Positions 73 to 17,549 of a stretch of 25,347 nt of DNA are shown here, one piece after another; position 1 is the stretch's first letter; the number at the start of each line of letters is the position of its first letter. The DNA comes from a virus. The position numbers and the translations under genes are program-made. A model generated the notes under the pieces. The model searched no databases and was not told the origin of the DNA. It worked only from the letters and a program-made list of their open reading frames with translations. The stretch lies in IMG/VR virus record IMGVR_UViG_3300025617_000105, positions 1-25,347 of that record; one strand, 5' to 3'.

Positions 73-918
73 CTAAACTTCATTCCAATACGCTTCTGGT
101 CTGTGCTGCACAAGGTCCTTTTCTTTGCTCTTGCCTACAAACTTGCGATCGCCTTTCATGTGATCAAACCATGTACCTAACACAGAATTAATATAAGGAT
201 GACCTCCGCCGCCAGTTTTGGCATTGCGGTTGACAATGTTTGCAGTATAGTCTAGTACGTTTGGATCAATCTTTTTTAGATTGTTAAGTATGTGTCCAAA
301 CACAAAACTATCGTGCCATTCTTCCAAGGTAAAAATCCCATTATCAGCATCGTTGTACATTCTTTCAAATTCTGTTAAAAACTTTTGACACATGTTGTGT
401 TTTAGATTTAATCCGTAAAATCCGCACTCTGGCCAAGTGTTAGATCCTTTGCCTCTACCTACATATGTAAGCCACTTGTCTTTGGGCAACAGCTCTACAA
501 ATTCGTGATAAGAAATATTGCTGTGTACAAATGTGTCGGCGTCCATCCACACTAACCAATCAGTATCAACTTTTTGTGCAGCATCAAAGATTGCATATAC
601 TTTATGACTAAAACGTATTGCGTCCCACTTAAATTCTTTGTGCCAGTCTCTCGGACGTCTTGCTTTGATGTCTTCTGGACACTTGCCGTTTGCTTTTGGA
701 ACATCTTTCCATTGTTCTTTAAACGCAACTAGTTTAGGTAAGTTGTGATTAACATCATAGATATCAATGTGTGGACCTTTTGCTTCAGGTGTACAGTCTT
801 CTGCATACACCATTAGCTTAATCTTGTTGTCCACACGTTCAGCGAAGCTGTCGATAAATCGCTGTCCGTATTTTTGCATACCTTCTTCGTGGAATGTTGT
901 TACTACTGTTACGCTCAT
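73..918 (-). CDS. GT-A-type glycosyltransferase-like protein
   Basis: A 281-aa protein with the layout of a small nucleotide-sugar-dependent glycosyltransferase. The N-terminus is a beta-strand run (MSVTVVTTFH). A hydrophobic strand then leads into WLVWMDADTF at 121-130, whose D126-A-D128 is the DxD motif that binds metal and sugar-nucleotide. A later WHDSF (201-205) could hold a catalytic acid, as in related GT-A enzymes. There is no signal peptide or membrane helix, so it probably acts in the cytoplasm. The start overlaps the upstream gene's stop by 4 bases (ATGA type), which suggests translational coupling. It is the last complete gene of the glycan cassette. The substrate cannot be deduced. 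The fold assignment is fairly safe, the family less so. Confidence 0.65.
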   Translation of the reverse strand: MSVTVVTTFHEEGMQKYGQRFIDSFAERVDNKIKLMVYAEDCTPEAKGPHIDIYDVNHNLPKLVAFKEQWKDVPKANGKCPEDIKARRPRDWHKEFKWDAIRFSHKVYAIFDAAQKVDTDWLVWMDADTFVHSNISYHEFVELLPKDKWLTYVGRGKGSNTWPECGFYGLNLKHNMCQKFLTEFERMYNDADNGIFTLEEWHDSFVFGHILNNLKKIDPNVLDYTANIVNRNAKTGGGGHPYINSVLGTWFDHMKGDRKFVGKSKEKDLVQHRPEAYWNEV

Positions 919-1856
919 TTGTTAGCCCATTTCTTCATGTGTTGCCATGCCATGCCTGATTTTAATTCGTCTAGTCTCCAATGACTCATTGCAATTTTTT
1001 TAATCCAAGGTTCTCTGTCGTATATTCTTAAATTTTCGAGTTCTCTTACATCATTATGTGCAACGTCAGCTGCCTGACTGTTTTTAGGATCTAAAACAAA
1101 AATTGGTACTCCTTCAATTGCTGCTGCTACTGCTGGACTACTATTATGATTTATCATACAATACGCATCATTTAGTTCACTCATAAGAGGTTTTCTCGGA
1201 TCGCTTATACTTACATTCTTATAAGGTATACGAGATATTTTTTTATAATGATCTCTTTGTTTTTTATCACCTGGATGAAATCTTACTACAATAGGCCTAT
1301 CACTATTTCTTCGTATTCTAAGTATTAAAGGATGTAGCCATTGTATAATACCTGTGCCTCCCATACTCCAGCCACCGTCTCTTTGGCAACAAATAAGAAT
1401 ATTCCCGCCGGCACTAGCTTTCTTCCATGGTTTCAATTGTATGCCTAAGTCTTTGCTGAGTTGACTCCATCTATCACCGTCTACTGGATCCCAGCAATAT
1501 TCTCCTGTGCTAGGAAAAATACCGTCATAGCTATAGCGTAGATATGTCTTTGTGTTACCCGGATCTGCATATAAAAATAAATTAGCATCAGCAATAATGG
1601 TACGTTTGCCTGCTGCTTTTTGATTTTCTAATACGTCTCTTCTTAGATTCAAATGCGGAACATGTTTACTTTCCGGATGTACAAATCCTTGTAGTACAGC
1701 AATATCACTTGCATAATGATGATAATTTCTAACTATCACTCCCTGATCGCCGCTGCGATTAACGCCTTCGATAAAATATTCTAACAGTCTAGGCTTTTCT
1801 GGATTCTTATTACCGGGAGGAATGCCTCGAAGATATGCATTAACAGATATACTCAT
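915..1856 (-). CDS. GT-B/capsule-type transferase, paralogue 1
   Basis: A 313-aa cytoplasmic protein. The C-terminal half has marks of the capsule-synthesis / CDP-glycerol-transferase-like GT-B group: a strand with VVRFHPGD (190-197, the HP motif) and then NHNSSPAVAAAIEGVPIF (236-253), the Ser-rich loop and helix that bind donor phosphate in that group. A CCQRDGGWS segment (156-164) begins the C-terminal domain. The tail (EPWIKKIAMSHW..GMAWQHM) aligns by eye with the 4145-5077 protein (ESWCNKIAFMQW..GYAWQLL), so the two are paralogues; the 1853-2659 protein is a more distant relative. It overlaps both neighbours by 4 bases. The donor could be a nucleotide sugar or a CDP-polyol. The family assignment rests on motifs only. 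Confidence 0.6.
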   Translation of the reverse strand: MSISVNAYLRGIPPGNKNPEKPRLLEYFIEGVNRSGDQGVIVRNYHHYASDIAVLQGFVHPESKHVPHLNLRRDVLENQKAAGKRTIIADANLFLYADPGNTKTYLRYSYDGIFPSTGEYCWDPVDGDRWSQLSKDLGIQLKPWKKASAGGNILICCQRDGGWSMGGTGIIQWLHPLILRIRRNSDRPIVVRFHPGDKKQRDHYKKISRIPYKNVSISDPRKPLMSELNDAYCMINHNSSPAVAAAIEGVPIFVLDPKNSQAADVAHNDVRELENLRIYDREPWIKKIAMSHWRLDELKSGMAWQHMKKWANK

Positions 1857-2659
1857 AAATCTAATTCCTTAATTAAGCGATATGCTAAACCGCTTCCTAG
1901 TTCACCTGGAGTATATTGACAGTATGCAAGGTAATTTAATAATTTTTTAAATTCTAGTTCATCTGGATACATTGGTGTTTCTATTTGACTTAGGTCTGTA
2001 TTAGCAAGATGTTGTGTTGCTGTTGGTGCCATTGTAAAGGCAGGAATGCCGTAGTGTATTGCTTCTAGTGCTGCTATACTTTGATATGTAACTAGTGCCC
2101 AAATGCCGTCTCTTGCACACTGTGATGCAATGTTATTTCCGCCTACTCTCTCGCTACGTAGACCTTTGTCTCTGATAATAATTTTTCTATCAGTATGTTT
2201 TTTAATTTCAGTAATTGTTGTTTCTAACCAATCTTCTCTATTAACTCCATAAAACGCACCTGGCTTGCCACTAGGTGTAACTAATAATATAGGGCCATTG
2301 TCTGGTCGAGATTTTTGTCCATTATATTTCATCCACGGATGTATTTCTAACATTCTGTCAAATCTATCTTTAGGAACATCAACAATTTTCTCAACATGTT
2401 GTACATTATTTTTTACAACTCGATAGTACCATTTTTTCTTTTGTGCATTACCGATGTATCCGTTGTCGATATAGTAAAAGTCTCGTCTAGTTTTCCAACA
2501 ATCTTTAATAATTTTTCGTTTAGACATACTACGAAACGCAACTGGGACATCAATAGGATAGTGATCAATTTGTTCTTTGGCAATTACTTGTCCAGCTGTG
2601 CCATGCAGCCACAATCTTACCATTTCGTCGCTGCTATCAAGGCCTAACATCTTAGCCAT
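1853..2659 (-). CDS. GT-B-like transferase, divergent paralogue lacking the HP motif
   Basis: A 268-aa protein. Its C-terminal third matches the other two GT-B-like proteins of the cassette: TYQSIAALEAIHYGIPAFTM (191-210) corresponds to their Ser/Thr loop plus GIP/GVP helix, and the end GLAYRLI matches their AWQLL/AWQHM. Where they have R-x-HP, this protein has IIIRDKGLR (160-168), so the conserved His-Pro is replaced by Asp-Lys. The middle part (FYYIDNGYIGN at 61-71) is like a conserved family I recall from marine phages and picocyanobacteria. It may use a different donor or be catalytically altered. It overlaps the upstream GT8-like gene by 8 bases. An ATG at codon 4 is an alternative start. 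Confidence 0.55.
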   Translation of the reverse strand: MAKMLGLDSSDEMVRLWLHGTAGQVIAKEQIDHYPIDVPVAFRSMSKRKIIKDCWKTRRDFYYIDNGYIGNAQKKKWYYRVVKNNVQHVEKIVDVPKDRFDRMLEIHPWMKYNGQKSRPDNGPILLVTPSGKPGAFYGVNREDWLETTITEIKKHTDRKIIIRDKGLRSERVGGNNIASQCARDGIWALVTYQSIAALEAIHYGIPAFTMAPTATQHLANTDLSQIETPMYPDELEFKKLLNYLAYCQYTPGELGSGLAYRLIKELDL

Positions 2660-3326
2660 TCATCATGTCCTGTAGTTCGTCTTTCCAAAGTTTATTGAAC
2701 TCGCAGTTTCTATAGTTTTCAAACCACGGTCCGCCTTCTGTGTAGTGTATTAGTTTAGGAGTTTCAATGTCATCGTACACACCTACTAGGTAGTTCCATG
2801 TATGATCTAACTTGCCAATCTCTTCGTCTTTAAGCCAGCTGAATCTATGAAAGTATGCACCATTAAGTTCTGGATCGTTTACCATGTCCTGTGTAAGTCT
2901 AGCATTACTAGGGTGCGCACAGTTAAACAGTACAACACTTGACCAGTTCTTGCGTGGATAGACAGTTTGCTTTTGTCCGTCCATCTTCATGCCTTCTTTG
3001 GGTGTGTAATCGTGCTGTACACACATAACAGCATACTTGTCGTCTGCTTGATCAAACAGTTCTTTGATGTCAGTGGTAAGGATCATATCGCAATCCATAA
3101 ACACTGCCCATCCTTTGAAGTTAGCAAGTTCTGGTACTAAGAAGCGTGTAAATGTAAACTCTGTACTTGCAAGTTTATCTTTCGGTCGTGTATACCAGCC
3201 GGCGTCTCGCAGTTCTTTTTGCACTAGTGGACGTACATTTGCTTCTGGTTGTTTTGTTAAGATACTATGCTTACATACTTGATAAGCAATATCTTCTCTT
3301 GGATCATATCCTACAAATACTTTCAT
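2652..3326 (-). CDS. GT8-like glycosyltransferase
   Basis: A 224-aa compact GT-A enzyme. The N-terminus MKVFVGYDPREDIAYQVCKH is typical of small GT8-like proteins of marine phages. FMDCDM (76-81) contains the DxD motif (D78-C-D80) for Mn and sugar-nucleotide binding. HYTEGGPWF (194-202) matches the family's C-terminal HxxGxxxPW-type motif, whose His helps bind the metal. The length is that of a bare catalytic domain without a membrane anchor. It overlaps the upstream nucleotidyltransferase-cupin gene by 4 bases and the downstream GT-B-like gene by 8. The activity is well supported; donor and acceptor are unknown. Confidence 0.75.
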   Translation of the reverse strand: MKVFVGYDPREDIAYQVCKHSILTKQPEANVRPLVQKELRDAGWYTRPKDKLASTEFTFTRFLVPELANFKGWAVFMDCDMILTTDIKELFDQADDKYAVMCVQHDYTPKEGMKMDGQKQTVYPRKNWSSVVLFNCAHPSNARLTQDMVNDPELNGAYFHRFSWLKDEEIGKLDHTWNYLVGVYDDIETPKLIHYTEGGPWFENYRNCEFNKLWKDELQDMMNG

Positions 3327-4120
3327 TCTACTATCTTTCTGTTTTTAATGTCTCGTCTTTCGATGTCTTCTTCGTAGCACTCTCCTCGTTGTATTTCAAG
3401 AATGTGTGCATTTTCTCCGTTAGGATTGCTTGCTTGATGCCAGACTTTTTTGCCTATTTCATACGGCATTGAGTGTTGTTGTAGATGAACAATGTCGTAT
3501 CTACCTTCCCACTCTGTTTCCATTTTGACTACACCTTCGAGAACAGTCCATTGTTCGCTACGTTTAAAGTGTCGTTGGTCGCTTAGGCTTTTGCCAGGAT
3601 AGATTACAAGTTCTTTTACTTTGTAACCCTTTTCTGGTTTATCATCTAGCACACGCCAGTAGCCCCAATCACGTTCTGTCTTTTGTGTTTTCCATTCGTC
3701 GAGTATCCAACTACTGCTGTTAGCTTTGTTACTGCCGCCTACTCTCCACGCAAATTCTACATCCGGATGATCTTTCCATGCAGTGTATTCGGGTGTTGAG
3801 GTATTGGTTCTATCGCCTCCATTAGCAAACAACAGTTTCCAACTGCTACCTTTGGTTGCTAATACAAAACCTATTGCACTACATGCACTGTCGTCATCGT
3901 CATCGAATCCAATAACTTCATCTACACAGCCTAGTTCTTTGATGATAGCGGCACGTTCTTCAAAGGGCATAAACGGTCTGCCTTTCTTGCGTGTAAGCCA
4001 TTCGTCACTGTTTACACCAACAACTAAGTGTTCACCAAGTTCTCGTGCTGCTCTAAAATATTCTATATGTCCTGAATGTAGTGGATCAAAGCCACCTGTA
4101 ACTAATACTACTTTGCTCAT
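3323..4120 (-). CDS. Nucleotidyltransferase-cupin fusion (cytidylyltransferase-like plus mannose-6-phosphate isomerase type II-like)
   Basis: A 265-aa two-domain protein. Residues 1-145 are a cytidylyltransferase-like nucleotidyltransferase of the RfaE/TagD type: GGFDPLHSGH (9-18) carries the HxGH signature, RKKGRPFMPFEERAAII follows, and SSSWIL (135-140) stands for the ISSTxI motif. Residues about 165-250 are a cupin like the C-terminal domain of type II mannose-6-phosphate isomerases: VIYPGKSLSDQRHFKRSEQW (172-191), then a second His in VWHQA (226-230). The protein could activate a phosphorylated sugar or polyol to an NDP form while the cupin isomerises or binds a sugar. It would supply donors to the transferases around it. 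The gene has no Shine-Dalgarno; a late-promoter motif lies exactly 5 bases before its ATG. Confidence 0.75.
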   Translation of the reverse strand: MSKVVLVTGGFDPLHSGHIEYFRAARELGEHLVVGVNSDEWLTRKKGRPFMPFEERAAIIKELGCVDEVIGFDDDDDSACSAIGFVLATKGSSWKLLFANGGDRTNTSTPEYTAWKDHPDVEFAWRVGGSNKANSSSWILDEWKTQKTERDWGYWRVLDDKPEKGYKVKELVIYPGKSLSDQRHFKRSEQWTVLEGVVKMETEWEGRYDIVHLQQHSMPYEIGKKVWHQASNPNGENAHILEIQRGECYEEDIERRDIKNRKIVE

Positions 4121-4144: not shown

Positions 4145-5077
4145 TTATTGTTTGTTATCTTGAGGCATTATCTGGCGAAGTAATTGCCAAGCATAACCGT
4201 CCTGCATTTCTTTTCCTGACCATTGCATAAAGGCTATTTTATTACACCAGCTTTCTCTATCAGGTTCTATAGTTTTTTCAATATCATCTAATGTATTAGG
4301 TATTAAAGAATAACTTAATGCACTAGGATCTAATGTAAAAGCCGGAATTCCATATAAAACAGATTCTACACAACTAGTACTATTATAAGTTACAGTACAC
4401 CAAGATCTATTAAAGTCGTCATACAAGTCTGGTAATAAAGAAATTGTAACTCTATTATCATCTTTATATTTGTTTCTTAAGATAACTTTCATTTTAGTAT
4501 CTTTAGGATGCTCGCGAATAATAATAGGACGATCAGTAACAAGTTTAATTTTTTCAATAGCTTCAAATACAACATCTTCATATTGTTTGCCGTTGTCCCA
4601 TATTCGTGTTAATGCACTATCGCCGTATAATTGACAATTAAATAATATAGCATTGCCCCTGCGGTTCCAATCATGAACTTGTATATTATAAGTATTACTT
4701 AATTCTTGCCAACGATTATAACTAGGATCGTAAGGATGAATGCCTGTGTCTGCAAAATAATGATTCCAACTAAATCGATACCATTGTTTTTCAAAGGGCA
4801 CACCCTTGGGATGCACACTAATGCCATTAGCTGACCGTAAAACTGGTAATTCTTTTATTAATATAGGTTTATTCTTTTTTTGAATACCTTCATATACATG
4901 GTCTATATATTTTTTTGCTTCGTTTGGCATTCCTGTTTGTAGTATAAAATCACAGTTAATTGCATCTAAATCGCTATATTCAATAGGTATTAGTTGATCT
5001 TGTTTAGTAGATTCGATTAAAGACTGTGCTTGCCAAACTTTTTTCCATTTAGCATGCTTTACAATAATCCCTTTCAT
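4145..5077 (-). CDS. GT-B/capsule-type transferase, paralogue 2
   Basis: A 310-aa protein paralogous to the product of 915-1856. Shared marks are ILFNCQLYGDS (144-154), TDRPIIIREHPKD (181-193, HP motif), YNSTSCVESVLYGIPAF (231-247) and the C-terminal WCNKIAFMQW..GYAWQLL. These fit the donor-binding domain of capsule or CDP-glycerol-type GT-B transferases. It is soluble, without a signal peptide. Its DNA is clearly AT-richer than the head and tail genes (for example 13 G/C in bases 4861-4920). A Shine-Dalgarno-like AAGGGA precedes the ATG. It overlaps the upstream methyltransferase by 4 bases. The specific substrate is unknown. Confidence 0.6.
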   Translation of the reverse strand: MKGIIVKHAKWKKVWQAQSLIESTKQDQLIPIEYSDLDAINCDFILQTGMPNEAKKYIDHVYEGIQKKNKPILIKELPVLRSANGISVHPKGVPFEKQWYRFSWNHYFADTGIHPYDPSYNRWQELSNTYNIQVHDWNRRGNAILFNCQLYGDSALTRIWDNGKQYEDVVFEAIEKIKLVTDRPIIIREHPKDTKMKVILRNKYKDDNRVTISLLPDLYDDFNRSWCTVTYNSTSCVESVLYGIPAFTLDPSALSYSLIPNTLDDIEKTIEPDRESWCNKIAFMQWSGKEMQDGYAWQLLRQIMPQDNKQ

Positions 5078-8197: not shown

Positions 8198-9277
8198 TTA
8201 TTCTTGTTCCTCTATCATAGATTCTTCATCAGCGGTATTTACCTCTTCTTCTTCTAAGATAGATTCTTTAGCAGCAAAATCTGCCATAACAATGTCTAGT
8301 TTTTCTCCTGTCCATGCTTTGCGGAATTCAAGCATTTCTTCACCTGTACTAGTAATATACTTGTAGCGGTTGCCTTGTTTCTCTAGTAAGCCTTTTGCTT
8401 CGAACAAGTCAAACAAGCCGCTATAAGGATCCATACCTGTTTCGTATGGAATTTCTACTTGTACACCTTCGAACGGTTTAGCATAACGTGTTTTCATTAC
8501 CTTACACGCCGCTCTAATACCGTGTACTTTAGATGTTTTGTTGCCGTCTGCGTCTACTTTTAGTTTTAGCTTCTTCATTGCTACAACCATTGAACTTGCA
8601 TACACAAAGCCCGAACCGCCTGAGATCTTATCATCTGGATCAAACATATCCTGCGATGCATAAGTATGGTTAGTAACACACATGCCTACATTGTGTGCAC
8701 CGAACATGTTAACACAGTTAGTTACAAGCGCCTTAAGTGCTTTAGCTTTACGCCCCATGTCACCTTTCATATCACCTGCTTCGAACTGATTAAGTTCAGT
8801 CGGTGACATAAGCATACCCAAACTGTCAACTACAAACAATACTTTAGGACGGTCTTCCTCTGGCATAGCTTTATAGTCTTTCATAAACGTACTAATGGTT
8901 TTAGCAACGTCATCAATCATAGCCATGTTAAGTTTAAGAATCTTATCTTCTGTAGTTTCTACACCTAGTGCATGTAGCCATGATTCGTCAAGTGCGTTTT
9001 CTGAGTCAATTAATACAACAAAAATACCTTGCTCTTGTGCGCTCTTAACAATGTTACCTGATACAATGTACGACTTACCTGCGCCTGACTCGCCAGCAAA
9101 TACTGACACTTTACCTAGTGGAATTCCTTTTTGAAAATCTCCACTAAGCAAATAGTTAAGTGCAAAGTTGCCTGTACTAATCCAGTCAGTTGGATCGTTA
9201 AATCCTGCACTCATACCTTGAATACTTTTTGTCAACGAATTACGAAACTTCGTTGGATCGAATGATTTATTCGCCAT
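8198..9277 (-). CDS. uvsX: UvsX RecA-like recombinase
   Basis: A 359-aa RecA-family strand-exchange ATPase. Walker A is AGESGAGKSYI (61-71), the catalytic-Glu region is LIDSENALDESW (89-100), Walker B is VLFVVDSLG (146-154), and the DNA-binding loop region is about 160-225 (KISGGSGFVYASS at 217-229). The N-terminal 30 residues act as the protomer-linking arm. The C-terminus is strongly acidic (EEEEVNTADEESMIEEQE), as in RecA, where this tail restrains activity. It works with gp32 and UvsY in homologous recombination and recombination-dependent replication. Its Shine-Dalgarno is AGGAG. It follows gp32 across a hairpin terminator with no promoter of its own visible, so it probably depends on read-through. 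Confidence 0.95.
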   Translation of the reverse strand: MANKSFDPTKFRNSLTKSIQGMSAGFNDPTDWISTGNFALNYLLSGDFQKGIPLGKVSVFAGESGAGKSYIVSGNIVKSAQEQGIFVVLIDSENALDESWLHALGVETTEDKILKLNMAMIDDVAKTISTFMKDYKAMPEEDRPKVLFVVDSLGMLMSPTELNQFEAGDMKGDMGRKAKALKALVTNCVNMFGAHNVGMCVTNHTYASQDMFDPDDKISGGSGFVYASSMVVAMKKLKLKVDADGNKTSKVHGIRAACKVMKTRYAKPFEGVQVEIPYETGMDPYSGLFDLFEAKGLLEKQGNRYKYITSTGEEMLEFRKAWTGEKLDIVMADFAAKESILEEEEVNTADEESMIEEQE

Positions 9278-10486: not shown

Positions 10487-10528
10487 ATTATTTTAAGAAG
10501 TTAGCCGAAACTTTTAAAGTCCGGCTAA
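10487..10528 (-). terminator. Probable terminator overlapping the stop of the 825-aa gene
   Basis: On the - strand TTAGCCG and CGGCTAA (7 bp) enclose a second pairing ACTT/AAGT, with the stop codon in the loop. CTTCTTAAAATAATTT follows. The U-tract is weak, but the position, just before the gp32 promoter, fits a boundary between the late and recombination blocks. Confidence 0.45.
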
Positions 10529-12991
10529 TCCTCTAATTCTATCTAGTTCTTCGTTGCCTTCGTCAAACTTTCCGCCAACTTCGTCGTACATGTCATGTAC
10601 TAGATCCATTACTGATGTATCTAATCCCATTGGTCTCTTACCTTGGATTAGTTCAGCAATAGCATAGAAATCTTCTAGTTGGCTTGCAATCATTCTTACG
10701 TCTTCGTCGTAGCCGCCTTTTCTTGCGTCTTGCATTTCTTTTTGCTTTTGTTTGATCATGCCGGTTAGTTTTTGCATGACTGCTTTATCAGCATCGTTTA
10801 GTTTAATGTCTTCTTTCTGCATCGCTGGTTGCGTTGCCTTTGATCTAATATAATCTGCTAAAATAGTCATTCTGTCTGCTGCATTACTTGCAGGAGTTTT
10901 CTTTAGCGGATTATCAAAAATACCAAATGTTTTCTTAGTAAGTTTTTTTGCTTGTTGCTCAAGCATGTCTGCAACTTTGTCCATCGTTGTCGGCGAATGC
11001 TTCTTAAGCATATCTACCATTTCTTGAGCTGCACTGTCGTCACCATTAACAAAGTCTTTAGTAATACCCTGTAGTAGTTTTTCCAAAACTTTTGCGCCGC
11101 CGTCATCATAACCAGCTTCTTCCATGTCAGTTTCTTTGCCGTTGATTTCTGCATACATTGTCTGAAGAGTTTGCTCTGCATTTTCTTCATCTGCAATATT
11201 GTAGTCATCTCCGTTTGCAAGATAGATGTCGCCTGTTTTAACATCAACTTGTGCAACTTCTTCACCGTTGCTTGCTAATATCTTTACCATACCGTTGGCA
11301 GTTTTTTCAATATCAGCACCTGGGAAGTATGATGGATCTTGTTTCAAATATTTTAAAAATTCAACTGCTTCGGACTCGCTTTCAACTACTTCAGCATCTT
11401 TATAGCCCATTACTTCTGCAATCTTATTATTGATTGCTTCAATAAACTGTTTAGCAGGTTCAATAAACTTTTCACCGTAGTCTTTTTCGATCATAGTTAG
11501 TACAGCAGTTTCTCCTTTTGGAAACTGTCCTGATTCACGATCAAAGTACGATAGAATAAACTCGCCTAATGGTGTCTTTTGTTCTTTTTCAAGTGTAATC
11601 TCGTCACCTTCTAGCTCAACACCTGCTTTGTCATAGTATTCTGCAGCAATATCTTGTACTGCTGTGTCTAGACTGTCTAGATAACCGCCTTTCTTAGCTA
11701 TATCTGCAATGTCTAAAATGTCGTCGATTCGCGACTGGATCATAGCAACATCCTCATCGTAACCGCCTTTCTTAAATTTTGCCTTTTGTGCTTTTAGATC
11801 TTTTAAGTCTCTGATGATAAGTTTTAATACTTCAGGGCTTTGATTAATGTCTCTACCTTCTTCTGCCTTAGTTTCGCTAAACTGGCCCATCATTTCTTCA
11901 AAGCCTTGCTCTAGTTCACCTTCTTCTGGAACACACTTGTTTACACGCTTGCCTTTGTTCTTACCTGTGCCAGCTTGTGTGCCGTCTTTTTTATAACCAT
12001 CCCAGCAATCTTTTGGTCCTGCTACTTCTTCTAGTTCATCTGGACCTAGTTCTTGTACAGCATTTGCTTCACTTACTAGTTTGTATACATAAGGAAATAC
12101 ATCTTTTAATTCTTCGTTAAACTGTCGAATAGTAAGTTGATCAATCCAATCGCTTTGTACGTCTTCTGGTACTTCTACACTATCTTTTGGTTCAAATGTC
12201 TCAACAAACTGTTTGTATGAATTTTCTTTTTGTAGTGACTCGATAGTTTTCTTAACTGTCGCAATACGGTCAAATACAACATCCATGTAACCTGATAGGC
12301 CTTCTGCCATAACAGTTGAGCGATTCATGTATGTTTTAAACTTGCGTAGTTTGTTTAATTCTTCTGATAGTCCTACAATGTGTTGTCCGATATCGTCATA
12401 TAAATTTCCGCCTTCGGCAACGTGTCTAGCAACAGCACGAGCACCGTTCAAATGTTTGTAGGGATATTTAAATCTTTCACCTTGTTCGTTTTCAACGTAA
12501 ATGCTGTGGATTTTTTGACTGCGTCCACTTGCTAGTTCTTGATTAACTGGTGCTGAATGTTTTACCACCATTCTTGCATTGCCAATGTTTTGAAAACTTG
12601 TTCTACTTGTACCGTACATTTTTGACTCGCTCATTGTTGTCTCTCCGCTGCGCTCCTTAGACAAGTATTCGTAATCGCTCTTGTCTAAGTTAGCTTTGGT
12701 AATATCTCTAGTGTCAAAGTCTAGCATACGCTTTTTGCTAAACTGACGCAATTCTCTTAAAAAATCATACCAAGCATCTTTTGCAGACATTTTATTATTA
12801 TACATAACTGTTAGTTTGTCTTCGTCAATGCTAACGTTAACTTTTTCACCGTTGTTCATTTCGAAGTCAAAAAATCTACCTTCGCCTGGCTCGTTAGTGA
12901 TCACACTATCTGCATCGCCAATAGTTACTTTAGGAAAGCGACCGCGAATTTTGTTAAACAGTTCTTCTGCAATGTTGTTAAGATTCTTCAT
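10514..12991 (-). CDS. Large conserved marine-phage protein with internal duplication (probable virion component)
   Basis: An 825-aa acidic protein. The start is the ATG at 12991; a TTG at 13006 would lie inside the late promoter. The N-terminal region (NIAEELFNKIRGRFPKV, MYGTSRTSFQNIG at 125-137, GARAVARHVAEGG at 183-195) resembles a large conserved protein I recall from marine T4-like phages. CWDGYKKDGTQAGTGK (329-344) ending in NKCVP is a Cys-bounded motif also seen in such proteins. Residues about 389-465 and 739-815 are two copies of one module (KKGGYDEDVAMI and RKGGYDEDVRMI). There is no enzyme signature. It follows gp17 and has a late promoter, so a head or virion role is likely but unproven. 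Confidence 0.75.
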   Translation of the reverse strand: MKNLNNIAEELFNKIRGRFPKVTIGDADSVITNEPGEGRFFDFEMNNGEKVNVSIDEDKLTVMYNNKMSAKDAWYDFLRELRQFSKKRMLDFDTRDITKANLDKSDYEYLSKERSGETTMSESKMYGTSRTSFQNIGNARMVVKHSAPVNQELASGRSQKIHSIYVENEQGERFKYPYKHLNGARAVARHVAEGGNLYDDIGQHIVGLSEELNKLRKFKTYMNRSTVMAEGLSGYMDVVFDRIATVKKTIESLQKENSYKQFVETFEPKDSVEVPEDVQSDWIDQLTIRQFNEELKDVFPYVYKLVSEANAVQELGPDELEEVAGPKDCWDGYKKDGTQAGTGKNKGKRVNKCVPEEGELEQGFEEMMGQFSETKAEEGRDINQSPEVLKLIIRDLKDLKAQKAKFKKGGYDEDVAMIQSRIDDILDIADIAKKGGYLDSLDTAVQDIAAEYYDKAGVELEGDEITLEKEQKTPLGEFILSYFDRESGQFPKGETAVLTMIEKDYGEKFIEPAKQFIEAINNKIAEVMGYKDAEVVESESEAVEFLKYLKQDPSYFPGADIEKTANGMVKILASNGEEVAQVDVKTGDIYLANGDDYNIADEENAEQTLQTMYAEINGKETDMEEAGYDDGGAKVLEKLLQGITKDFVNGDDSAAQEMVDMLKKHSPTTMDKVADMLEQQAKKLTKKTFGIFDNPLKKTPASNAADRMTILADYIRSKATQPAMQKEDIKLNDADKAVMQKLTGMIKQKQKEMQDARKGGYDEDVRMIASQLEDFYAIAELIQGKRPMGLDTSVMDLVHDMYDEVGGKFDEGNEELDRIRGLAGL
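10547..10777 (-). repeat. Internal duplication, copy B (C-terminal)
   Basis: This stretch encodes residues about 739-815 of the 825-aa protein. The core ARKGGYDEDVRMIASQLEDF, then GLDTSVMDLVHDMYDEVG, matches copy A at 11597-11827 in order and spacing. Similarity is mainly at protein level, with matching DNA around the GGYDEDV codons. Confidence 0.65.
11597..11827 (-). repeat. Internal duplication, copy A (central)
   Basis: This stretch encodes residues about 389-465. The core KKGGYDEDVAMIQSRIDDIL, then SLDTAVQDIAAEYYDKAG, aligns with copy B. The two copies are about 270 residues apart, so this is a dispersed duplication and not a tandem repeat. Confidence 0.65.
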
Positions 12992-12996
12992 ATTAA

Positions 12997-13004
12997 TATT
13001 TATC
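12997..13004 (-). promoter_or_regulatory. Late promoter GATAAATA, 5 nt before ATG
   Basis: GATAAATA, then TTAAT, then the ATG at 12991 of the 825-aa gene. It overlaps the last codons and stop of gp17. There is no Shine-Dalgarno, so a leaderless late mRNA is predicted. Confidence 0.65.
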
Positions 13005-14580
13005 AATAACCGCTAATAAAAATAGGCATCGGAGGATCATAATCGTCGTCCTGTTCTGCTTGTGTAAATGTATTATAGATCCTCGGATCCCAGTCTTTGA
13101 GTACTGCCATCATGCGAATAGCAAGTAATGTAGCACTAATTAAATCATCTGTCATGCCCGACTTGGCTTGATAGCTTGATCCTGTTGCAACAAATCCTTT
13201 TAACTCTGACAACAAAGGTTTACTTTTAATTGTCATTTTGTCGTTTTCGATCATAGTTTTTAAACGACTACATGCTGTAATTTTTGTACTGTGCGTAGTA
13301 TTAAACCCTTTGCGGAACTTTCTTACATGTCCTTTACGCATAGGCTCACTTACAAACAGGCCTGGAATGTTTTCTTCACCGAAGTCATTAATGACTAGCA
13401 AACATGCTTCGCCGATTCCGTTGTTTTCTACACTCCAATAAATGCCTGTTGGGTTTTTAATTTCATCGGCAATATATTTACAGATGTCACTGAGAACTCG
13501 GATTTGTCCAGGAATAGCAGTTGTATTATGTTGCCACTCTGCTACTTGTTCGTAGCTAGGTAATTCAAATACTTGTATAGCAGCATTATCTCCACCTGTA
13601 CCCATACTAGGATCAAGTGCTACTGCATATGTATAGCTCGGCGATGGCTTTTTATACCAGCGTGTTTGACCCATATTGAGTATCGGTGATTCTCCCTCCA
13701 TTACAGCAAGTTTAATTGAATTAATTAGTGTTTCATCGAATACTAAGAACTCACAACCGTACTCACGTCTAAACTTTTCTTCGCCAATACGTCCTATTTC
13801 TTCGTCTCGCCACTTTTCGTCTCTGTCAGGATGTTCGTCCCAGCTTGCAACAAAACTATGAAAGCCGTTGATGCCTACTTCCTGTTCGTTGCCGTGTTCG
13901 TCAAACTTTTGTTCTGCTTGTTTCCAAATAGTAGCAAATGTATCTTCGTCTGAGTTAGGTGTTGATGTAATAATAGCTCTACCACCTGTTGCTAGTGTAG
14001 GCGATATTGAAGTCCAAAATTCTTCAGCAATATTAGGTTGCACAAACGCAAACTCGTCACAGTATAGTAGCGAGATACTCATACCACGTCCTGTGTTGCC
14101 CGTTGTAGTTTGTGCTACAATACGTGATCCATTTTCGAACTCTATTGATTGTTTGTTGTAACTAGTAACACCTGCTCTAATATGATCTGGACAAGTTTCA
14201 TATACAAAGCGTATACGTGACATAATCTCTTGCGCACCAGTGTACTTGTGTGCAGCAACTAGGATAGTTTGATCAGGGTTAAACATCGCATACCAAGCTA
14301 GATAGATACTAGCACATGTGGTCTTACCTGTTTGTCTAGGCATCATATTAATGTTAAAACGATAGTTGTGATAACTGTGCATTAGACGTAACTGATACTC
14401 GAAAGGATCAAACAACAACTTACCTTTTACAGGATGCTGAATGTAAGCAAATTGTCTTGCAAAATGTAGATACCCTTCGTCAGGATCCATACATTTTACA
14501 ATGTCTGCAATCTGTTCTTCAGTAAATGTTTCTTGTTTATTGGCCTTTTTAATTAAAACGCCGTCTAACGATGCTGCCAT
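13003..14580 (-). CDS. gp17: Terminase large subunit (DNA packaging ATPase/nuclease)
   Basis: A 525-aa two-domain packaging motor of the T4 gp17 type. In the ATPase domain Walker A is MPRQTGKTT (80-88), Walker B is SLLYCDEFAF (170-179) with catalytic E176, and the coupling motif is TSTPN (205-209). The RNase H-like nuclease domain shows VALDPSMGTGGD (320-331, D323), SVENNGIGE (383-391, E385) and GMTDDLISA (475-483, D478/D479). It cuts concatemeric DNA and pumps it into the prohead together with gp16 and the portal. It is shorter than T4 gp17 (610 aa) but complete in motifs. It is separated from the gp16 gene by three genes, unlike T4, where 16 and 17 adjoin. Confidence 0.97.
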   Translation of the reverse strand: MAASLDGVLIKKANKQETFTEEQIADIVKCMDPDEGYLHFARQFAYIQHPVKGKLLFDPFEYQLRLMHSYHNYRFNINMMPRQTGKTTCASIYLAWYAMFNPDQTILVAAHKYTGAQEIMSRIRFVYETCPDHIRAGVTSYNKQSIEFENGSRIVAQTTTGNTGRGMSISLLYCDEFAFVQPNIAEEFWTSISPTLATGGRAIITSTPNSDEDTFATIWKQAEQKFDEHGNEQEVGINGFHSFVASWDEHPDRDEKWRDEEIGRIGEEKFRREYGCEFLVFDETLINSIKLAVMEGESPILNMGQTRWYKKPSPSYTYAVALDPSMGTGGDNAAIQVFELPSYEQVAEWQHNTTAIPGQIRVLSDICKYIADEIKNPTGIYWSVENNGIGEACLLVINDFGEENIPGLFVSEPMRKGHVRKFRKGFNTTHSTKITACSRLKTMIENDKMTIKSKPLLSELKGFVATGSSYQAKSGMTDDLISATLLAIRMMAVLKDWDPRIYNTFTQAEQDDDYDPPMPIFISGY

Positions 14581-17108: not shown

Positions 17109-17116
17109 TATTTATC
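17109..17116 (-). promoter_or_regulatory. Late promoter GATAAATA before gp16
   Basis: GATAAATA overlaps the gp4 stop and lies 26 bases before the gp16 ATG, giving a leader of about 21 nt. Two TATAAT hexamers follow in the leader (within 17086-17100), but no -35 box at 16-18 bases is convincing. Confidence 0.6.
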
Positions 17117-17549
17117 TTCGCTGACCTTGATGAAAGATATCTTTTTCTGTTATAACTCTAAAGAAGATTCCCTTTTGTTTGCACCATGCTCTTGCAGCTT
17201 CCCACTTAACTTGATTAAGTGCCCAATGCATTTGATTAGATCTCGAATTACCTAAACTTTCTTTAGTAGTTTGATTGTCAGGTTTTACTTCAATAACTTC
17301 TACTTTTTGATTTCCCTTTGCATCACTATATGCAATAAAAAAGTCTGGTACATAGATAGTATGTTTTCCAGTAAATGGATTTTTGTAAGGGATACGTATT
17401 GCTTCACTTGCCCATTTTTCTACACTAGGATTTTCGTCGCAAAATCTCATAAATGCAAATTCCCAACTGCTTCGATATGTAGGAGTCTTAGTACCTACAT
17501 ACTTGTCAGGATTTTTGAGAGTGAATTTTCCTTGAGCAAACTTGGCCAT
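17112..17549 (-). CDS. gp4: Head completion protein gp4 (TnsA/PD-(D/E)xK-like fold)
   Basis: A 145-aa protein, near T4 gp4 (about 150 aa), which completes DNA-filled heads before tail joining. KFTLKNPDKYVGTKTPTYRS (8-27) and SWEFAFMRFCDEN (28-40) match the gp4 N-terminus. The rest has the pattern of a TnsA-like nuclease: E30, YVPDFFI (66-72, D69) and VIEVKP (85-90, E87-x-K89). These residues could form an active PD-(D/E)xK site. It starts in a TAATG overlap with the upstream gene. The late promoter of gp16 begins at its end. The assignment is secure by motif order and by place among head genes. Confidence 0.88.
   Translation of the reverse strand: MAKFAQGKFTLKNPDKYVGTKTPTYRSSWEFAFMRFCDENPSVEKWASEAIRIPYKNPFTGKHTIYVPDFFIAYSDAKGNQKVEVIEVKPDNQTTKESLGNSRSNQMHWALNQVKWEAARAWCKQKGIFFRVITEKDIFHQGQRR

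Follow-up and report, generated by a model that had tools for sequence, protein, structure and literature searches.

The stretch of DNA analysed here (the window; 25,347 nucleotides, positions 1 to 25,347 of the IMG/VR virus record IMGVR_UViG_3300025617_000105) carries on its minus strand a gene for a 265-residue protein, in which an HxGH-type nucleotidyltransferase is fused to a cupin resembling type II phosphomannose isomerases (PMI). The fusion is confirmed; the two families are known ones, but their pairing, which is real and widespread, appears not to have been described before. The protein is probably a bifunctional sugar-phosphate isomerase and nucleotidyltransferase, which would supply an activated sugar to the glycan cassette of an uncultured marine myovirus. 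This reading draws on the presence of both domains with conserved residues in their motifs, on the purifying selection and recurrence of the fusion, and on its linkage to glycosyltransferase genes. The gene and the landmarks of its product are:

3323..4120, minus strand: fusion gene, nucleotidyltransferase (N-terminal) and type II PMI-like cupin (C-terminal), 265 aa; intact open reading frame (ORF), Pfam, AlphaFold2
3893..4102, minus strand: CTP_transf_like match, residues 7-76 (Pfam PF01467, E 2.7e-15)
4067..4078, minus strand: HxGH motif H15-S-G-H18 in GGFDPLHSGH (H15, G17 and H18 invariant in 28 relatives)
3707..3718, minus strand: SSSW signature, residues 135-138 in K-A-N-SSSWIL, at the site of the GxSTT motif of HldE-type enzymes
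3356..3685, minus strand: MannoseP_isomer cupin, residues 146-255 (Pfam PF01050, E 1.2e-14), with a fold like the CapF cupin and the archaeal PMI 7zvm (Z ~15)
3560..3583, minus strand: positions S180, Q182, H184 and R187 of the PMI 9-residue motif (invariant in 28 relatives)
3437..3439, minus strand: H228, presumed to be a metal ligand, the fourth beside Q182, H184 and E189 (invariant in alignments A1 and A4)

The gene is a single uninterrupted ORF with an ATG start, while frame 1 of the opposite (plus) strand is interrupted there by several stops. Both domains proposed in the first-pass annotation (a CTP_transf_like domain with HxGH, and MannoseP_isomer) were recovered in Pfam-A well over their cut-offs (57.2 bits against 21, and 54.9 bits against 23.6, respectively), and the cupin match covers positions 10-113 of the 116 in the isomerase profile. 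The two halves are connected by a short linker. The AlphaFold2 model, built with 28 relatives, has a mean predicted local distance difference test (pLDDT) of 85.7; it comprises a nucleotidyltransferase fold and a cupin, both of good quality, and each half matches solved structures of the expected kind.

The fusion recurs, as had been suggested for checking. In IMG/VR, a first scan recovered the complete fusion at 80 loci, of which one is identical to the window and the others reach 71-82% identity, and a second scan, with a cyanophage nucleotidyltransferase as the query, added more divergent fusions (cupin identity down to ~40%) along with ~60 standalone forms. As the same intact fusion is present in about 100 contigs, neither chance nor assembly accounts for it. 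The alignment of the fusion was compiled from 101 ORFs longer than 240 aa. Both halves are under purifying selection: the proportion of nonsynonymous differences (pN) is 0.09-0.16 and that of synonymous differences (pS) 0.53-0.78 in each half (Nei-Gojobori counts; pS is near saturation, thus only the direction is meaningful). No fusion with 80% coverage was present in 50,697 phage records, also with two more divergent queries, and no earlier description was found in the open-access papers searched. In the phage loci, a standalone cupin beside a standalone nucleotidyltransferase was looked for and none was found. The tree requires three changes and many of its forks are open, so a single origin of the fusion is neither shown nor excluded.

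In the nucleotidyltransferase half, the landmarks GGFDPLHSGH, KKG and R56 are invariant or nearly so in the 28 relatives, and K132, N134 and S135-L140 are all invariant. The protein scores above the cut-off of TIGR00125 (cyt_tran_rel) in NCBIfam. Its best-scoring partial matches there are HldE domain II and GMP_PMI, each under the equivalog cut-off. The resemblance to HldE domain II and HldC (HENases) is seen in the fold, in the HxGH and GGD motifs, and in the comparison with HldC 5xf2 (Z 14.3 and 32% identity; 33-35% in Foldseek). The motif (F/L)xxGxSTT, characteristic of heptose nucleotidyltransferases or HENases (PMC11573728, PMC11461863), is absent, its place being taken by K-x-N-SSSWIL. 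The N-terminal half belongs to a distinct 'K-x-N-SSSW' nucleotidyltransferase clade, with an HldE/HldC-like fold and without the GxSTT of the heptose enzymes.

The family scores raise the alternative of an ADP- or CDP-heptose enzyme, in which the cupin would replace GmhA (sedoheptulose-7-phosphate to manno-heptose-7-phosphate) and the N-terminal half would act as a heptose-1-phosphate nucleotidyltransferase. HldE domain II is the best-scoring family, HldC is among the closest folds, and the chemistry would be analogous; moreover, SIS_2 (GmhA) was not found in nine larger fusion-bearing contigs, and viruses do encode heptose biosynthetic enzymes (PMC11461863). Six of the nine contigs, however, have PfkB kinase genes, and the four that were read (L170-L173) each have a separate kinase-nucleotidyltransferase gene with STS/STT and an adjoining epimerase-like gene. 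The L170 protein is HldE-like (TIGR02198, 225 bits; TIGR02199, 157.4 bits) and its neighbour HldD-like (TIGR02197, 239 bits), with every score falling a little short of its equivalog cut-off, whereas the fusion reaches only 73.3 bits on TIGR02199 (cut-off 181.5) and has a cupin instead of the kinase. Frames of ~500 aa that match the nucleotidyltransferase part only, in several genomes of the putative host order (see below), also look like HldE. Because the contigs have separate HldE-type genes, SSSW replaces GxSTT, and the four phage HldE domains are separated from the SSSW clade with 100/100 support, an ADP-heptose product of the fusion is unlikely, and we consider the heptose enzyme as a whole quite improbable. 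In these contigs, where no GmhA turned up and where L170 encodes a small Cupin_2 protein beside the HldE-type and HldD-like genes, GmhA could be replaced by a cupin.

The cupin half contains the 9-residue motif known from type I and type II mannose-6-phosphate isomerases (MPI; PMC9602691), whose Ser, Gln, His and Arg are here S180, Q182, H184 and R187 (S-x-Q-x-H..R). These four residues, E189 and H228 are all invariant in the 28-member alignment, and E189 and H228 plausibly complete a predicted metal site. The C-terminal part of the GMP_PMI profile TIGR01479 (positions 357-460) is also matched, with E 4e-13 and 49 bits against an equivalog cut-off of 373. The arrangement of a C-terminal MannoseP_isomer cupin with S-x-Q-x-H..R behind a sugar nucleotidyltransferase is shared with the type II PMI/GDP-mannose pyrophosphorylases (ManC, AlgA, XanB, PslB; TIGR01479). 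Those enzymes join the cupin to a GDP-mannose pyrophosphorylase (GMP) of the NTP_transferase fold, whereas the partner here is of the HxGH (HldC/TagD-like) kind; the pairing is thus non-standard, as first proposed. A split PMI-GMP pair was also considered and rejected, PF00483 being found in only one of the nine larger contigs and there beside an apparent sugar-nucleotide dehydratase gene. Cyanophages such as S-SCSM1 encode monofunctional type II MPIs, likewise MannoseP_isomer cupins from marine T4-like phage, but these are described as single-domain in all 267 environmental sequences of that study (PMC9602691), unlike the fused cupin of the window.

The best structural match of the cupin half is the CapF cupin domain (Z 15.3), which would fit a cupin that takes the product of the nucleotidyltransferase and epimerises or isomerises this NDP-sugar in the manner of CapF- or RmlC-type cupins. 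The archaeal phosphomannose isomerase 7zvm ties with it (Z 15.1), and since cupin folds are alike, the rank says little. The matched profile is that of type II PMI, and no competing cupin family is found at E <0.1, which makes such an order of reactions very unlikely.

In the mechanism proposed for the bifunctional enzyme, the metal-dependent C-terminal cupin would turn a ketose phosphate into an aldose phosphate of manno configuration and back (the chemistry of phosphomannose isomerase). The N-terminal HxGH domain would then move a nucleotide from CTP or ATP onto a sugar or polyol phosphate, with the release of pyrophosphate. Both sites would thus be active in one pathway, and the GT8 and KpsC-like transferases encoded nearby would draw on the activated sugar to build or modify a glycan.

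Several observations weigh against this reading. The HHHRAEHW signature and a C-terminal YGR mark the type II MPI class. The window protein has neither: it carries HFKRSEQW (the standalone phage cupin of L085 has HFHRAEHW), and YGR is missing in the window's clade, although it is present in the L085 cupin. By its 9-residue motif, the cupin is isomerase-like but may act on a substrate other than mannose-6-phosphate, and the altered signature and lost YGR may mean that the substrate or the activity has changed. The linker (residues 139-149, pLDDT ~44), along with the final residues, is weakly modelled. The two steps of the known PMI-GMP enzyme are linked by a phosphomannomutase reaction, so a direct hand-over between the domains is not given. 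Finally, the marine phages S-SSM7 and P-TIM68 have the nucleotidyltransferase alone, near a DNA polymerase gene and without a surrounding glycosyltransferase cassette, and the domain is therefore able to act without the cupin.

The changed signature, the loss of YGR and the cupin-less marine phages would also agree with an enzyme in which only the nucleotidyltransferase is catalytic, the cupin being a degenerate isomerase retained for oligomerisation, docking or ligand sensing. Against such a role stand the invariance of S180, Q182, H184, R187, E189 and H228, purifying selection on the cupin that is as strong as on the other half, and the preservation of HHHRSEHW in divergent fusions such as L157. 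A purely structural or sensory cupin therefore seems unlikely, and we retain the bifunctional enzyme as the preferred reading. Independently of these considerations, the annotation of the S-SSM7 460-aa 'cytidyltransferase' (L082:13976-15355) looks thin: Pfam gives nothing for it at E 0.01, and its matches in NCBIfam are all weak.

The fusion gene lies within a run of glycosyltransferase-like and methyltransferase genes. The neighbours in the window that define the cassette are:

2652..3326, minus strand: GT8-family glycosyltransferase, overlapping the fusion stop by 4 bases (Pfam PF01501, E 4.6e-6)
1853..2659, minus strand: T2, transferase-like but unclassified; in some relatives it appears to be fused to GT8
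915..1856, minus strand: T1, GT-B protein resembling the retaining Kdo transferases KpsC/WbbB/KrkA (AlphaFold2 pLDDT 94.3)
4145..5077, minus strand: T3, glycosyltransferase-like (weak BFO_1060 and surf_polysacc matches)
73..918, minus strand: GT2-like glycosyltransferase (Pfam PF00535, E 0.0017, below the cut-off), recurring in the block
8198..9277, minus strand: UvsX/RecA, conserved marker upstream of the cassette (PF00154, E 7.9e-14)

The loci share a conserved gene order, which runs from uvsX through a gene for a 151-aa protein and a variable stretch of glycan genes to the fusion, GT8, T2, T1, the GT2-like gene and T3. The uvsX gene is present in 60 of the 70 loci with sufficient upstream sequence, and T1 is found at most 4.5 kb from the fusion in 43 of 44. 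The gene following the fusion is most frequently GT8 (49 of 82 loci), and T2 in 13 of the 82. That genes in the window overlap by 4 bases suggests a single operon; promoter and terminator scans gave no enrichment over shuffled sequences. At five loci (L077:6725-8437, L004, L056, L080 and L160), the GT8 homologue lies within an ORF of 560-580 aa, which is apparently a GT8-T2 fusion because a separate T2 is usually absent there.

The predicted fold of T1 has its nearest matches in KpsC, WbbB and KrkA, transferases that use CMP-Kdo (Z 12.2-14.5). They share the GT-B fold, and H194-P195 and S239 are invariant among the T1 relatives, but the identity is only 9-16% and the template modelling (TM) score ~0.5. 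The neighbouring genes had initially been taken as CDP-glycerol-transferase-like, which was not borne out: no CDP-glycerol transferase family of Pfam was matched by any of the 34 T1 relatives, the 27 T2 relatives, or T3. Such an enzyme is also absent from the best 50 structure matches of T1, which does not exclude a match of this kind. The CDP-activated polyol or sugar proposed as the product loses its main support, because the T1 and T2 relatives have no CDP-glycerol transferase match and T1 resembles Kdo transferases; a CTP-using enzyme remains compatible with the data. The glycerol-3-phosphate cytidylyltransferases (GCT) TagD and TarD share the superfamily and the fold with the N-terminal half (Z ~14 to 1coz/2b7l, 26% identity), but on TIGR01518 the fusion scores 50.6 bits against an equivalog cut-off of 165.4, and RTxGISTT is absent. 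The characterised CDP-6-fructose/glucitol cytidylyltransferase is of a different family, PF01128 (PMC10918830). For the SSSW clade, the labels 'heptose adenylyltransferase' and 'glycerol-3-phosphate cytidylyltransferase' are both poorly founded.

The window also encodes a T4-like terminase, UvsX and a tail sheath. Its terminase (13003-14580) is closest, at ~55% identity, to those of PA5oct and Paride, two jumbo phages of Pseudomonas, and an uncultured marine group related to these may be the source of the window. Two further genes of the window are recorded in their own right: a TnsA-like endonuclease N-terminal domain (17112-17549; PF08722, E 2e-23) lies among the structural genes, and an 830-aa protein without a convincing Pfam match (10514-13006) stands between the terminase and gp32-like genes and recurs upstream of the cassette in relatives.

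In bacteria, the two domains were found apart. Two narrow-pattern scans of GTDB contigs (84,980 species) gave only the standalone nucleotidyltransferase, in two uncultured Alphaproteobacteria, which is a weak negative for a bacterial fusion. For one marine alphaproteobacterial order, 120 genomes (0.7-1.6 Mb) were scanned; matches at E 1e-10 occur in 109 of them, and in about 103 a strong match to the nucleotidyltransferase ends where that domain ends. A separate cupin, mostly of ~117 aa, is present in at least 31 of the 120, and none of the matches listed spans both halves. The standalone nucleotidyltransferase, of the SSSW type, adjoins pyrE in the five loci of the order that were read, and its opposite flank is in most cases occupied by a pdxH-like gene (L167, L168, L182-L191). 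In a phylum-wide sample, a single genome of 200 matched at E 1e-20 (G010 itself, unfused). The phage fusion therefore joins two proteins that are encoded apart within single genomes of this order, which suggests that they work together and share a pathway. The same distribution hints that the order contains the phage host; the standalone nucleotidyltransferase also occurs in cyanophages, so phages of that order are not the only ones to carry the domain.

A more specific proposal, which we regard as rather unlikely, is an undescribed nucleotide-sugar route. The cupin would make an aldose phosphate and the SSSW-type nucleotidyltransferase would activate its terminal phosphate directly, without a mutase, giving a new NDP-sugar for the phage glycan; the same reaction would be carried out by two separate genes in the marine alphaproteobacterial order that possibly includes the host.

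If the fusion is active as a bifunctional enzyme, widespread marine phages would make their own activated sugar for the glycan cassette. A function could then also be named for an uncharacterised nucleotidyltransferase of this order, present in ~103 of its 120 sampled genomes and adjacent to pyrE in the loci read.
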